From positions 3,342,506-3,406,505 of the forward strand of contig OX638316.1 in NCBI GenBank assembly GCA_951812525.1: a stretch of 64,000 bases of DNA, written 5' to 3'. Both the position numbers and the translations under genes were made by a program. Source of the DNA: an uncultured Poribacteria bacterium (GTDB lineage Bacteria > Poribacteria > WGA-4E > WGA-3G). Of the stretch, positions 14,977 to 50,272 are shown one piece after another. The notes under the pieces are model-generated. The model was not told the DNA's origin. It saw nothing but the letters and a program-made list of their open reading frames with translations, and did not search any database. The stretch's first letter is position 1; each line of letters begins with the position of its first letter.

Positions 14977-15888
14977 ATGCAAACCAACCGTCCCTACACA
15001 GCGTCGCGTGGGATGAGCGACTACCAATTAAAGATGGCATTTATCATGCCTACCATGATTTTGCTCATCTTGATGAACATTTTTCCCCTGCTCTGGTCGT
15101 TATACCTAAGTTTCCATCGTTACAAAGCCTCCATGCCCGCAGCACCGAGATTCATCGGGGTTCGTAATTATTCACGCCTCCTCGCCGATCCAGAGATATG
15201 GGGCTATTTTCAGACCACAGCCTATTTCGTGGTACTCGCGGTAGCCGCACAATTCTTTATCGGATTCGGGTTGGCTCTTCTACTGAATAGAGACTTTCGG
15301 TATAAAGGTTTCGTTACAACGCTGCTTCTGCTCCCAATGATGCTATCCCCTGTGGTAGTTGGACTCTTTTGGCGTTTTATCCTCTCTTCAGATAACGCCG
15401 GTTTGCTGAACTTTTTCCTCAGTCCCTTCCTAAAATCACCTATCGGCTGGACGACCAATCCGAAAGTAGCGATGTTAGCCGTCGTAATTGTAGATACGTG
15501 GATGTGGTCACCTTTCATGATGCTGATCGCACTCGCTGGTCTGAGTGCCGTACCGAAATCTCTTTATGAAGCCGCTGATGTTGATAGAGCCTCGGCGTGG
15601 TTCAAGTTTCGATGGATAACACTCCCTCTGGTCTCTCCACTCCTGCTGATTGCCCTGCTGTTTAGAACGATGGATGCCTTCAAAATGTTCGATATTGTCT
15701 ACGTCCTTACCCGTGAGGGCGGACCCGGCACTGTCACAGAGACGGTATCAATGAACCTCTATAAACTCGCCTTTCGGAACTACAACACCGGTAAAGCGTG
15801 CGCCATGGCGTATATCCTACTCATCATTATCGTCGCACTGAGCAATATCTACGTTAAGTACCTGAATCGCGTCAAGGGAGAGGCATAA
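14977..15888 (+). CDS. ABC transporter permease (MalF/UgpA type)
   Basis: A 303-residue inner-membrane permease with six predicted helices; the first is around residues 21-42. The cytoplasmic EAA loop that docks the ATPase reads YEAADVDRASAWFKFRWITLP, matching the family pattern EAA...G.......P with D/R in place of the glycine region. It lies about 95 bp after the binding-protein gene, separated by a hairpin, and 7 bp before the second permease. No clear ribosome-binding site precedes the ATG at 14977; the ATG at 15013 (MSDYQLK) is an alternative. Confidence 0.85.
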   Translation: MQTNRPYTASRGMSDYQLKMAFIMPTMILLILMNIFPLLWSLYLSFHRYKASMPAAPRFIGVRNYSRLLADPEIWGYFQTTAYFVVLAVAAQFFIGFGLALLLNRDFRYKGFVTTLLLLPMMLSPVVVGLFWRFILSSDNAGLLNFFLSPFLKSPIGWTTNPKVAMLAVVIVDTWMWSPFMMLIALAGLSAVPKSLYEAADVDRASAWFKFRWITLPLVSPLLLIALLFRTMDAFKMFDIVYVLTREGGPGTVTETVSMNLYKLAFRNYNTGKACAMAYILLIIIVALSNIYVKYLNRVKGEA

Positions 15889-15895
15889 AAACATT

Positions 15896-17113
15896 ATGCG
15901 GAATCGGAAAAGCTTTACCCACTACCTCATATTAGTGCTTGTTGCTGTGGCGGTGATTGTCTACATCACGCCGATCTACTGGATTTTGGCGACGTCACTG
16001 AAGGGACTGGCAGACATCACTACAAAACTACCGAAGTTTGTTTTTGAAGTATCATTGGAAAATTATCAGAAACTGATGCCTTCGGACGGGGTACCTGGCG
16101 TTACACACCTGTTTTTAATAGAGGTATTGGTGGGTTTACTATTTTTCGGTTTTTTCTCGCTTTTTGATGTGAAATTGCCCAGTGCCTTATCGATCCGAAA
16201 TCTCGGATTAGCTTGGAACGCTGTTTTCGTTTTAACCTGCCTCTATAGTTTTCTGACACTACAACCACTGCAGAGCCGTTTCCAAACCGATGCACGTTTC
16301 AATTTTCTGCTACTGATTTTCTGCACAGTCATAGCCTATCTCCTAATGGCACCTTTCAAGAAGTCTAACGGGATCGCGCCCCAAACCACCAGGAAGCAGC
16401 TCCTTACTTTAGTTCTGCCGAGTGTTTTTGGGACCATAGCAATTTGCGTTGCATTGGCGAATGGTGGCTCCAAATACTTTTACCAGTTGCTTAATAGTAT
16501 TATCATCGGTGGTGGTAGTACGATTCTCGCTGTCGGACTCGGAACGCTTGCGGCGTATGCCTTTTCCCGATTCGATGTTGCTGGAAAGGACGATCTGCTT
16601 TTTTTCATCCTGAGCACACGCATGCTGCCCCCTGTTGTTGTTGTCATTCCAATCTATCTAATGTATAGTGCACTTGGCTTACGAGACACACACTTTGGGC
16701 TGATTCTACTTTACACTACCTTTAATGTCTCATTTGCGGTATGGTTAATGAAGGGATTTATTGACGAAATTCCGAAGGAGTATGAGGATGCTGCGCTCGT
16801 TGACGGCTACTCTCGGTTCCAAACCTTCTTGAAGGTAATCTTGCCGCAGTCTGTCACAGGCATCGCTGCCACCGCTGTATTTTGTCTCATTACCGCGTGG
16901 AACGAGTTCGCCTTTGCCTTAGTCCTCACAGAGGTCGGCGGAAGAGCCGTTACCGCACCTCCGTCGATTACGAGTGCTACAGGTTCTAGCGGTATGGATT
17001 GGGGCAAAATCGCTGCTGGCACCTTCGTCTTTTTGTTACCGGTTGCTGTTTTCACCTTCTTGATGCGGAACCACCTGCTACGAGGGGTTACATTTGGCGC
17101 AGTGAAAAAATAA
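15896..17113 (+). CDS. ABC transporter permease (MalG/UgpE type) with membrane insertion
   Basis: At 405 residues this is about 120 longer than the usual 270-280 for this family. Helix 1 (about residues 11-33) and the first periplasmic segment (SLENYQKL) are normal. Residues about 65-185 then form an insertion with roughly four extra hydrophobic helices. After it the normal core resumes (FYQLLNSIIIGGGSTI...LAAYAFSRF), with the EAA loop EYEDAALVDGYSRFQTFLKVILPQ in pieces matching the family. No frameshift is needed, so the insert is translated. No ATPase gene follows; a shared MsmX-like ATPase elsewhere would be required (inference). Confidence 0.85.
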   Translation: MRNRKSFTHYLILVLVAVAVIVYITPIYWILATSLKGLADITTKLPKFVFEVSLENYQKLMPSDGVPGVTHLFLIEVLVGLLFFGFFSLFDVKLPSALSIRNLGLAWNAVFVLTCLYSFLTLQPLQSRFQTDARFNFLLLIFCTVIAYLLMAPFKKSNGIAPQTTRKQLLTLVLPSVFGTIAICVALANGGSKYFYQLLNSIIIGGGSTILAVGLGTLAAYAFSRFDVAGKDDLLFFILSTRMLPPVVVVIPIYLMYSALGLRDTHFGLILLYTTFNVSFAVWLMKGFIDEIPKEYEDAALVDGYSRFQTFLKVILPQSVTGIAATAVFCLITAWNEFAFALVLTEVGGRAVTAPPSITSATGSSGMDWGKIAAGTFVFLLPVAVFTFLMRNHLLRGVTFGAVKK

Positions 17114-46820: not shown

Positions 46821-47471
46821 TCAAGAAATAAGGTTGAGCCAATCGCCTAATAGGAAATCGGCGCGCTGAATAAGAAGTGCCACACGTCCCATAACAGTGT
46901 TACCAAATGCCGAACCGAATCCAATCATGAGAAAAGCGATACCGACCTTTGAAAGCCATTTGACGGGACCTCGATGTTCTACGGAGAAGAAGAAGTAGGT
47001 GAGTGTGCAAACCACACCAACAACCATAAGGACTGCTTCAAAAACGCCCCAACCAGAGAGAGTTCCGGCATGCATCGCCGCAAACGGTTCAATTGTTCCC
47101 CGTGTCTGTTCAAAGATGTTTGCGCGCAGCACATTCGGAATCGCAACACCTGAACCGAATCCAATGAGAATCGCAATTGGATAGCGGATTAACCACGTGT
47201 GTCCAGGAGACAAACGGGCAAAAAACAGCAAGCCAACACCGATCGGAATTAACTTGACTAAGCCTATAAGTGACTCTCCAGTGACCGCTGCCCAAAAAGG
47301 TTTAAAAGCAAAAGGAATCAATCCTTGGTGAATAGAGAGAACAATGCCGTATCCGACAGATATACCTACATAGAGGTGCTCTGCAAACCGATAGAAGGGG
47401 TTGTCTTGATAAAGAAAACTATAGATGCAAAGTGTTAGAAGTGCTGCAACCCAAATCCCAAAAAGTTCCAT
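46821..47471 (-). CDS. Polytopic membrane protein, gene 4 of four-gene cluster
   Basis: A 216-residue protein with about six membrane helices and few loops. It starts MELFGIWVAALLTLCIYSFLY; SGWGVFEAVLM and FGSAFGNTVMGR are the least hydrophobic, best-looking conserved stretches. GAGGAG 8 nt upstream sets the ATG at 47471. No family is recognised. It follows gene 3 by only 4 bp. Confidence 0.7.
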   Translation of the reverse strand: MELFGIWVAALLTLCIYSFLYQDNPFYRFAEHLYVGISVGYGIVLSIHQGLIPFAFKPFWAAVTGESLIGLVKLIPIGVGLLFFARLSPGHTWLIRYPIAILIGFGSGVAIPNVLRANIFEQTRGTIEPFAAMHAGTLSGWGVFEAVLMVVGVVCTLTYFFFSVEHRGPVKWLSKVGIAFLMIGFGSAFGNTVMGRVALLIQRADFLLGDWLNLIS

Positions 47472-47475
47472 CAAA

Positions 47476-48270
47476 TTACTCCTCTCGCCGTCGTTGATTG
47501 AAAAAAATGATATTCCCGGCGACTACGAGTCCTACAATCAGCAGATGCACAAACGATTCAATATTTATCCACAGCATTCCTTTAGCTGGGACATCTATCA
47601 GTCTTTCATACTCGGCAGCCCCCAAAATTCCAGATATCAAACCGACCAATTGCCCTGTTTGTAAATATGGATACATCTGTGAGATAATGACGCCTGTAAC
47701 GCCTGCGGCAATTTGTAAATTGTATTGGACATTCGCATAGGTAATCCATACCTCTGTTGAACTCCCTGACGCGAGGTCGATAAGTAGGGAAATTTGGGCA
47801 TAGTTCGTAATATCTTTCATCATCGGAATTTCGGTAGTCGCTTTTCCGCTGTAGTCGGTCTCAAAGACACTGCTAATATCGGACCCCATTCCGAGAATAA
47901 CCTGGGTTGCACCGGGGCGGAAGCCGAGGAAAACATAATCTTCGCCGTCCACTGCTCCCTTTTCTTCAGCGATCTCCTGTATAAGCGTACTCGCCAACGT
48001 TGTACCGTCTGGGTAAAGTGTGAGGGCGATAACACGGACATCGTTATCAAAGCACTGTCTCAGTAGGGATTTTGCCATCGGGTTCAGTTCTGCTAAAGAG
48101 GAGGGGCCATAGTCAAAGGCGAGTATGATAGTTGAATCACTAGGAAGTGCTTCGATGTAGTCATAAAGTTTCTGTGTCGGCTCAGATACCGAGACGGGTA
48201 GATTGACGCGGAACAACATTGGAATGATAACCGCCAACGCAACCAAAATATAAACAAATCGCCGATCCAT
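47476..48270 (-). CDS. Anchored extracytoplasmic-domain protein, gene 3 of four-gene cluster
   Basis: A 264-residue protein. One N-terminal helix (about residues 7-24) is followed by a ~150-residue soluble domain with a Rossmann-like beta-alpha rhythm (STIILAFDYGPSS, DVRVIALTLYPDG, EDYVFLGFRPGAT). One or two C-terminal helices and a basic tail end it (ending NQRRREE). GGAGGAG precedes the ATG. It starts 2 bp after the stop of gene 2. No family is recognised. Confidence 0.7.
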   Translation of the reverse strand: MDRRFVYILVALAVIIPMLFRVNLPVSVSEPTQKLYDYIEALPSDSTIILAFDYGPSSLAELNPMAKSLLRQCFDNDVRVIALTLYPDGTTLASTLIQEIAEEKGAVDGEDYVFLGFRPGATQVILGMGSDISSVFETDYSGKATTEIPMMKDITNYAQISLLIDLASGSSTEVWITYANVQYNLQIAAGVTGVIISQMYPYLQTGQLVGLISGILGAAEYERLIDVPAKGMLWINIESFVHLLIVGLVVAGNIIFFNQRRREE

Positions 48271-48272
48271 AT

Positions 48273-48923
48273 TTAATCTCCTCCGCCTAAGTACGTGCGC
48301 TCAATTCCTAATATTATTCGGATAGATTGAGAAATCACGCCTAAACTAACCCCGAGGATGATGCCACGTCTTGCTGAGAGATTCGGGTTATTCAAAATCC
48401 ACTGACGGGCACCTGAAGCACCGTCTTCCAAAGGAAGCCACGACAAAACAGTATTCCAGATCAGATCTCCTACAGGCACATTCCCCATCATGACAATCAG
48501 AGCAGTAATCAACAGCAGACTCGCTTCAAACGTTCGGGCGCGAAAGGCACGGTATGCCGCCGAGGCAATGAAGAAAGCGAGGAGGGAAAACATCGTCGCG
48601 TCCATAGGGACTTGGACGTGGGTATAAAACCATTCAAAAACTTGATTTTGAGGACCAAACGGAACGCCTATCACAACCATCGTGATGATGCCCACAAACA
48701 CAAGAAAACTGTATTGCCAATGTTCTGTGCGACGGCGAATGCGCGTCACATGTGTTTGAATGAGTGTTGTTGTTGCTAACACCAACGCAAAAGGTGAAAT
48801 GATTAGTGCCCAACTGATAACTTCTTGGTAAAGTGTCTGAGAAACTGAATGTGGACTAAATTGTGTGAAGATCATCACAATCCCAAAGACAAAGCATAGA
48901 ATTAAGGGAACTTGTCGTCGCAT
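48273..48923 (-). CDS. Polytopic membrane protein, gene 2 of four-gene cluster
   Basis: A 216-residue protein with about six membrane helices. A basic cytoplasmic loop lies after the second (RIRRRTEHW), and a NVPVGDLIWNTV segment is near the fifth. GGAGG is close upstream of the ATG. It starts 8 bp after gene 1. No family is recognised. Confidence 0.7.
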   Translation of the reverse strand: MRRQVPLILCFVFGIVMIFTQFSPHSVSQTLYQEVISWALIISPFALVLATTTLIQTHVTRIRRRTEHWQYSFLVFVGIITMVVIGVPFGPQNQVFEWFYTHVQVPMDATMFSLLAFFIASAAYRAFRARTFEASLLLITALIVMMGNVPVGDLIWNTVLSWLPLEDGASGARQWILNNPNLSARRGIILGVSLGVISQSIRIILGIERTYLGGGD

Positions 48924-48931
48924 AAAACCTC

Positions 48932-50077
48932 CTAACTCACCCGCTGTAAGAGGGTTGTGATCCAGTTGACACCAGCCAATTCAAGCACTACACCCAATAT
49001 CATAAGAACGAAAATAAGGAATTTTCCCCAATCTTGACCTCTAAGGCTGCCGAGTAGCATCGGTTCTCTGGAGAGGTAGGCACTCGCTGCGTAAAGTTCT
49101 TCGCCAATTAAAGTATAGTCGCATGAGGCGATAAAGAACGGGAGTTGGTGCTCAGAGTCTGTGCCCGCAATCTGAATGGCACCGATGGAATTTCCTGTCT
49201 CAGCGAGAATAAGCGATTCCGCGAAAAATTGACCTTGTAGAAATATCGCCGCTGGTTTTTCACGAGTCATAATACCCGCTACACCCGCAGCGTAGGCGAA
49301 TTGGCTCTCGGTGAGAAAAAATATGTTGTCTTCGTTATAGGCATCCGGGCGACCTTCATCAAGATAGGATGTACGCACTACCTCACGCACTACGTTCGTA
49401 ACAATTGGATCCCGACAAGGAACATGCAACGGTGTTTCATAATCGGCAGTTCGCCGCGCAACTTGTCCCAAAATCGTCATACTCGCAATCGTCGGGACCT
49501 CCTCTACACGTCCTAATCCTAAACTATAGAGAATCGAGCGCCCCATTTCCGTCGCTCTACCAATCGCTTCGTCAACAGCTTCTAACCCGGGGATTCGTCT
49601 GACGAATATCTCTTTGCCGCTCCGAGCATAGTAGATATTCCAGACAATGCCAGCGGAAAAGAGAATCATTGCAATAAACAGCGGAATTTTACCAGTATGA
49701 AACAACTCGCCTGTCCCTTTAGCTGGTGCTGTTTCTTCGGAATCCACGGTCGCCTCTGTTTCAGTAACCGCTCGAACTACGTAGGCATAAGCAGACCCCT
49801 TTTCGATACTTGAATCGACATAAGTTGTCGTTCCAGCAGGTAGCAATGCACCAATTTCTTCGAGACCACCGCCTGCAATCCGTCGTAGGATTTGGTATCC
49901 ACTGATACTGCTCCTCTCAGGTGCCGCCTCCCATTTAATGGTGATACTGCTCCCATCATCGTTCGGGGTATCCATTGCCGTCACGTTTGATGGTGGTGTC
50001 AGTCCTTGGCTAAATGCAGTGCTAATGCCTATGCATAAAACCAAGTAGACAAGTAAGCATCGAATTGTTTTTCTCAT
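48932..50077 (-). CDS. Fibronectin III / DUF6754-like membrane protein, gene 1 of four-gene cluster
   Basis: A 381-residue protein. Signal peptide (to about residue 23), one fibronectin type III domain (about 27-115: PPSNVTAMD...ITIKWEAAP...YAYVVRA), a membrane helix (about 130-150), a ~195-residue domain, and a final helix (about 355-375). The large domain (GKEIFVRRIPGLEAVDEAIG, ILYSLGLGRV, FAYAAGVAGIMTREKPAA, TDSEHQLPFFIASCDYTLIG) resembles, from memory, the uncharacterised DUF6754 family. GAGGA precedes the ATG. It is the first and most distinctive gene of the cluster. Confidence 0.75.
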   Translation of the reverse strand: MRKTIRCLLVYLVLCIGISTAFSQGLTPPSNVTAMDTPNDDGSSITIKWEAAPERSSISGYQILRRIAGGGLEEIGALLPAGTTTYVDSSIEKGSAYAYVVRAVTETEATVDSEETAPAKGTGELFHTGKIPLFIAMILFSAGIVWNIYYARSGKEIFVRRIPGLEAVDEAIGRATEMGRSILYSLGLGRVEEVPTIASMTILGQVARRTADYETPLHVPCRDPIVTNVVREVVRTSYLDEGRPDAYNEDNIFFLTESQFAYAAGVAGIMTREKPAAIFLQGQFFAESLILAETGNSIGAIQIAGTDSEHQLPFFIASCDYTLIGEELYAASAYLSREPMLLGSLRGQDWGKFLIFVLMILGVVLELAGVNWITTLLQRVS

Positions 50078-50272
50078 AAATATGTTTCCTCATTTGTAGC
50101 AGTCGGCTATCAGTGTATTATGGTGTTTTATAAAAATAAAGATACATTTCAGTAAACTGAATACACAAAGTCCAATCTTGCTGGTCTACAATAGTATCCA
50201 GTAATTGTCTCACCTCTGCTGGCGAGGTTTCTGCTCTTATCTGATAGCCGACAGTCGATGGCTGACAGCCAT

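Follow-up and report, generated by a model that had tools for sequence, protein, structure and literature searches.

We examined a four-gene cluster in a 64,000-nucleotide stretch of DNA (hereafter, the window) from an uncultured Poribacteria bacterium (GenBank assembly GCA_951812525.1, contig OX638316.1, positions 3,342,506 to 3,406,505). The four genes, here called p1 to p4 after their products, constitute one conserved unit that is joined elsewhere, on its upstream side, by genes for two small proteins (s145 and s130), a MutL/GlmL-like ATPase of the ASKHA type (mutL), and a barrel-sandwich/KOW-like protein (bar). This unit repeatedly shares a gene chain with components of peptide-type ATP-binding cassette (ABC) importers, namely, the substrate-binding protein OppA, the permeases OppB and OppC, and the ATPases OppD/F. 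From this gene neighborhood, we put the probability at roughly 0.5 that p1–p4 make up the inner-membrane portion of an accessory complex, assisted by an ATPase, that serves Opp/Dpp-type importers.

The cluster comprises four minus-strand open reading frames (ORFs) spanning window positions 46821–50077, with intergenic gaps of 8, 2, and 4 bp (Table 1). The last gap is counted from an ATG at 47471, which gives a p4 product of 216 residues; a TTG at 47474 is the alternative start (217 residues, ORF 46821–47474). Purine-rich ribosome-binding sites precede all four starts (GAGGAAA, AGGAGG, GGAGGAG, and GAGAGGAG), and the ORF list and sequence thus bear out the layout described in the initial annotation. 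The ratio of nonsynonymous to synonymous substitution rates (dN/dS) for p1–p4 was 0.10–0.15 against the relative L008 (L-numbers denote loci and G-numbers genomes of relatives) and ~0.09–0.13 in the comparison with L011, for which dS approaches saturation. With L014, three of the four genes had a saturated dS. Given these low ratios, p1–p4 are real genes under strong purifying selection. A region upstream of p1 is flanked by a perfect 12-base inverted repeat (window 50102–50113 and 50241–50252), the two copies of which are the sole matches in the window at one mismatch or fewer (two found versus 0.2 expected).

The first product is a full-length member of the DUF6754 family (PF20539), as had been proposed for its large domain. 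The match scored 397 bits against a cut-off of 27 (E = 3.4e-119), with residues 123–376 covering profile positions 3–256 of 257. In an alignment of 28 sequences, 77 columns were invariant and 74 of them fell within residues 160–352, a concentration in DUF6754 that suggests a ligand-binding or catalytic domain. Hydropathy across the family alignment gave an N-terminal signal-like segment and further segments at 130–150 and 352–372, and the charges around the membrane segments predict that the DUF6754 domain lies inside the cell. A weaker fourth peak at 181–201 coincides with a strand and helix of the structural model. The Pfam fibronectin type III model (fn3, PF00041) matched p1 at 23 bits, against a Pfam cut-off of 25, and solved fn3 chains matched the same stretch when the p1 profile was compared with structures. 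In the p1 monomer model (predicted local distance difference test score, pLDDT, of 68), the fn3 part was a confident beta domain and the DUF6754 part was poor. We considered whether the DUF6754 domain and p3 share a fold, given their similar order of strands and helices, and found no support for this (hhalign probabilities of 1.9 and 0.2), the p1 model being too poor there for comparison. At locus L225 (2–3328), the p1 protein carries ~840 additional N-terminal residues in an open frame. The Pfam description of DUF6754 names no function; its conserved partners and the tie to Opp genes are additions of the present analysis. Identity between the window and non-Poribacterial rows was 41–47% for p1, 34–47% for p2, 30–36% for p3, and 37–44% for p4.

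Profile searches with p2, p3, and p4 brought no Pfam or NCBIfam match that passed its cut-off, and comparison of their profiles with solved structures gave no match better than chance, in keeping with their having gone unrecognized in the initial annotation. For p3, family-alignment hydropathy gave one N-terminal and one C-terminal membrane segment, and the AlphaFold model (mean pLDDT 85, predicted template modeling score 0.82) had a domain of strands alternating with helices, with a membrane helix on either side. The description of p3 as an anchored protein with a Rossmann-like domain holds, because the best fold matches were Rossmann-type chains (Z up to 10.8), with no family standing out. 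Among the VIA-align rows listed, the top ones (CODH/ACS epsilon subunits and MT0777, Z ~10) barely exceeded generic Rossmann chains, and we therefore claim no named fold family. Charges around its segments predict that the p3 domain is outside the cytoplasm. Family-alignment hydropathy of p2 and p4 gave the expected six membrane segments each. Common ancestry of the two was unsupported at the sensitivity used (hhalign probabilities of 0.6 and 0.3).

The two six-helix proteins had suggested a channel-like core, and a fuller version of that idea would make p1–p4 a gated channel or ion-coupled transporter, with ligand sensing by the Rossmann domain of p3 and ATP sensing by the MutL-like protein, energizing or regulating Opp. 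The RCK domains of TrkA and MthK do occur among the p3 fold matches (Z 8.4–9.4), though many generic Rossmann folds score as well or better, and the p3 domain is predicted to be extracytoplasmic. In profile searches, channel or transporter families came up only at chance level for p2 (E ~4–5), and no channel family matched p4. A channel core formed by p2 and p4, proteins not detectably related to each other, has no support beyond the six predicted helices in each, and we regard a channel or transporter as improbable.

We then compared 138 DUF6754 loci from Poribacteria, Planctomycetota, Fidelibacterota, and a Gemmatimonadetes-labeled phylum (that of G088), with the short loci L037–L111 and L001 set aside from locus maps and counts. 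As the 138 include at least one apparent duplicate contig (L032 and L166, judged by length) and many close relatives, the counts are not independent events. All four genes occurred in one chain at 121 of the 138 loci and in the same order at 118. The remaining 17 loci miss one or more of p2–p4 in the chain, and most of these reach a contig end; at L132, a 6.8-kb stretch parts p1 from p2. Despite room for them, p2–p4 were missing beside p1 at L174, L175, and L177, and the genomes concerned (G343, G262, and G375) each hold one p4 elsewhere; the unit withstands the refutation proposed in the initial annotation. More broadly, p4 was present in eight of eight p1-bearing genomes checked, while three p1-free genomes had none or a fragment.

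Poribacteria metagenome-assembled genomes, at 67–89% identity, were the nearest relatives. DUF6754 was found in 81 of 84 Poribacteria genomes and in none of 14 control genomes. Two of the three Poribacteria without it, G005 and G006 (79% and 64% complete), also lack bar, s130, and p4; the third, G017, an assembly of ~910 contigs, has mutL, bar, s130, and a 25-residue p4 fragment. Outside Poribacteria, sampling found DUF6754 in 91 of 149 genomes from the G089 phylum (record title Neomarinimicrobiota, tree label Fidelibacterota) and in 50 of 199 from the G086 phylum (Planctomycetota); in the G088 phylum, 54 of 64 genomes had it. Tandem p1–p4 copies stand beside a single mutL–bar set in Planctomycetota loci L181, L182, and L186, and L172 has two p1–p4 copies in a stretch without mutL or bar. 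The two copies of L182 are separated by a gene for an ABC ATPase in which two domains are fused and which includes an oligo_HPY stretch. PADLOC anti-phage defense models matched none of seven proteins at E 0.01, and no p1 relatives were found in the viral contigs or plasmids searched; a reading as a phage gene was dropped, as only the fn3 part matched, to a tail protein.

The compact four-gene unit of the initial annotation is thus real and conserved, but its extent was drawn too small, as p1–p4 account for just the distal half of the full unit. Using gene-family models built from the collected loci, we found the order s145-s130-mutL-bar-p1-p2-p3-p4 in deep Poribacteria (L120 and L128), Planctomycetota, Fidelibacterota, and the G088 phylum; in many Fidelibacterota, s130 is placed between bar and p1. 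Both mutL and bar lie in the p1 chain at 78 of the 138 loci (2, 22, 24, and 30 by group). In L036 (2936–6004), L132, and L135, mutL and bar are one ORF of ~1000 residues, hinting that the MutL-like ATPase and bar act together. The bar product had weak matches to the barrel-sandwich model RnfC_N (E = 0.005 for the fused protein and 0.08 for L027) and to KOW (E = 0.02). Profile comparison gave no kinship of bar or mutL with p1 or p3, and bar-p1 fusions suggested by long open frames proved to be overlapping frames. The gene before bar in L175 (10208–11152) and L177 (10156–11100) is a candidate ftsY, judging by its sequence. Of the 84 Poribacteria genomes, 81 have p1, 77 have s130, 75 have a mutL match over the cut-off, and 74 have bar. 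The window's genome is a single contig of 5.06 Mb, with the DUF6754 domain at 3391455–3392216; bar, mutL, and s130 are single-copy and dispersed there (Table 1).

The product of mutL matches PF13941 (E = 1.9e-126) and GlmL-family models, raising the idea that it is a reactivating ATPase of the GlmL type for a cofactor-dependent enzyme and that the module uses an Opp/Nik-class importer to bring in and load the cofactor, such as a corrinoid or nickel; Opp/Nik permease models also match the linked OppB/C. We find this very doubtful. The MutL of relatives (the L027 protein) falls below all three NCBIfam GlmL-type cut-offs (239.6 versus 475, or half, 216.2 versus 600, and 166.1 versus 204), and no mutase was noticed among 60 flanking clusters, most of which carry no tool-based annotation. 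Unlike the GlmL family, the unit's ATPase sits among membrane proteins and is a single ORF with bar in three loci.

The importer link emerged when flanking ORFs were clustered and each of the four groups showed peptide-type ABC genes. Opp labels were assigned by best similarity to seed proteins and checked with Pfam on examples, among which we found SBP_bac_5, BPD_transp_1, OppC_N, and oligo_HPY. Same-strand Opp genes lie within the chain at 35 of the 138 loci: 5 of 33 in Poribacteria, 12 of 27 in the Fidelibacterota phylum, 15 of 33 in the phylum of L029, and 3 of 45 in Planctomycetota and others. In L138, L147, L148, L168, L169, L212, and L219, OppA-B-C precede and OppD/F follow the module, with mutL outside the bar-p1-p4 block in L168, L169, and L219. 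All 16 loci collected blind to their flanks (L209–L224; six from the G089 phylum and ten from the G088 phylum, part of the 138 and with many close relatives) had an Opp gene. SBP_bac_5 genes have a background of ~0.9 per Mb (153 in ~168 Mb, 38 genomes), so that by chance far fewer than 1% of loci should have a same-strand OppA within 3 kb. In an OppA tree of 47 rows over 420 residues, from which shorter fragments (e.g., L148 and L142) were left out, the OppA linked to the module in the G089 and G088 phyla formed one clade (99/99; 15 of its 16 rows linked) apart from the other OppA of the same genomes. A p1 tree made by a quick method placed Opp-linked loci on several branches, including L128, which is linked and lies close to the clade of the window; downstream of its p4 come genes for an oligo_HPY ATPase and then a TOBE_2 ATPase. 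The latter, the second "OppDF" label of that locus, is by Pfam a TOBE_2-type ATPase and not Opp.

Several observations weigh against an importer partnership. No Opp gene lies in the chain at 103 of the 138 loci, and Planctomycetota are nearly always without one. The linked OppA are not one lineage: L147 groups with an unlinked OppA, L181 falls elsewhere, as do the opposite-strand L180 and L171, and the Poribacterial linked OppA are DppA-like, grouping with the three OppA of the window's genome. The linked p1 of Poribacterial loci L121, L125, and L126 belong to a divergent second lineage, that of the linked copies in G024–G026, and not to that of the window. No Opp gene was detected among the window's ORFs with Opp seeds at E 1e-15. 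The three OppA of its genome are 9–13 kb from bar and ~60 kb from p1–p4. Permease genes of the best-scoring type sit apart, at 4760885–4762416. In addition, p1-bearing G108, G206, and G360 gave no SBP_bac_5 match in the search of 38 genomes. The three OppA (L205, 8402–13534) are consecutive, on the same strand as bar, without adjoining OppB/C, and between bar and the window start. Within the window, positions 14977–17113 hold two BPD_transp_1 permease genes (genome 3357761–3358372 and 3359037–3359576), which are unmatched by Opp seeds and therefore probably belong to another ABC importer class.

Other neighbors also recur. A pair of genes for an ABC-2 ATPase and permease comes after p4 in L143, L151, and L209–L211 (the last three without OppD/F) and after an OppD/F gene in L138. 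The genes plsX (FA_synthesis) and fabH (ACP_syn_III) flank 10 loci each in Planctomycetota (Phycisphaerae), and a CTP_transf_1 gene flanks 13 Fidelibacterota loci, with one member of each checked by Pfam. Together with the many chains lacking Opp genes and the core-gene-like near-universality of the module in Poribacteria even without Opp linkage, these lipid-type neighbors suit an independent cell-envelope machine, for example, in lipid or cell-wall homeostasis, whose genes would simply accompany housekeeping and transporter operons and whose Opp link would be secondary and confined to some lineages. We consider this possible, if somewhat unlikely. Each of the lipid-type neighbors is limited to a single phylum and sits beyond the module's borders; Opp genes, in contrast, are found in every one of the four groups and on both sides of the module, and the linked OppA of two phyla form a single clade.

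Returning to an accessory complex of Opp/Dpp-type importers, we can postulate how its parts would work together. The p2 and p4 proteins would form the membrane core, with p3 displaying its Rossmann-like domain on the outer face, close to the binding protein, and p1 displaying the highly conserved DUF6754 domain inside, close to the ATPases. The MutL-like ATPase, connected via bar, may bind the inner face of the complex and spend ATP on assembling, gating, or resetting it, so that a particular peptide-like substrate (e.g., a large or cell-wall peptide) would be imported or passed on. As the parts in the window's genome are dispersed and in single copy, we infer an importer partnership there from relatives.

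The chains of relatives carry SBP_bac_5, two BPD_transp_1 permeases, and oligo_HPY ATPases, as do importers of the Opp/Dpp/Yej class, though NCBIfam Opp matches of the linked genes fall under their cut-offs. To our knowledge, no ASKHA ATPase or p1–p4 belongs to the known OppABCDF, DppABCDF, and YejABEF systems. In the PubMed Central open subset, searches found neither "DUF6754" nor "PF20539", and nothing relevant describing a system like this module. It is conceivable, if rather speculative and on balance unlikely, that the module represents a new class of ABC importer apparatus, in which an ASKHA-type ATPase and a barrel adaptor drive a four-protein complex alongside an Opp-class pump, combining two kinds of ATP motor, with p1–p4 ancient, near-universal in Poribacteria, and present in at least four phyla. 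YejBEF-YepA, an importer of the same class, takes up cell-wall peptides (muropeptides) according to its abstract (PMC9790009), pointing to cell-wall peptides as a possible substrate class here; that abstract mentions no p1–p4, MutL, or bar module.

Table 1. Genes of the p1–p4 cluster, dispersed partner genes in the same genome, and lipid-type neighbors at related loci
Feature	Coordinates	Strand	Description	Basis
Product 1 (p1)	window 48932–50077	-	381 residues; signal segment, fn3-like domain, transmembrane helix, DUF6754 domain predicted cytoplasmic, transmembrane helix	PF20539 match, hydropathy, charge, model
Product 2 (p2)	window 48273–48923	-	216 residues; six predicted membrane segments; without Pfam family	profile searches, family-alignment hydropathy
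Product 3 (p3)	window 47476–48270	-	264 residues; Rossmann-like alpha/beta domain between two transmembrane helices, predicted extracytoplasmic	AlphaFold model, fold comparison, charge
Product 4 (p4)	window 46821–47471	-	216 residues from ATG at 47471; six predicted membrane segments; without Pfam family above cut-off	profile searches, hydropathy
bar, window's genome	genome 3316609–3317751		single copy, dispersed	profile search
mutL, window's genome	genome 4160752–4162182		single copy, dispersed; plus a weak PF13941 match under cut-off	profile search
s130, window's genome	genome 786607–786870		single copy, dispersed	profile search
Lipid-type neighbors checked	L018 10625–11641; L030 11744–12748; L149 11788–12621		plsX, fabH (Planctomycetota) or CTP_transf_1 (Fidelibacterota)	

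If an accessory role for p1–p4 is correct, a Pfam family without a function, three unnamed membrane families, and a "MutL/GlmL"-like ATPase would be parts of one machine, and the peptide-class ABC importers of several phyla would bear an additional ATP-powered complex. Our data also advise caution in labeling the MutL proteins of this module as glutamate mutase helpers. The link to Opp supplies a testable partner for proteins of unknown role, and some of the genomes bearing the module are from Planctomycetota, a phylum that includes culturable members.

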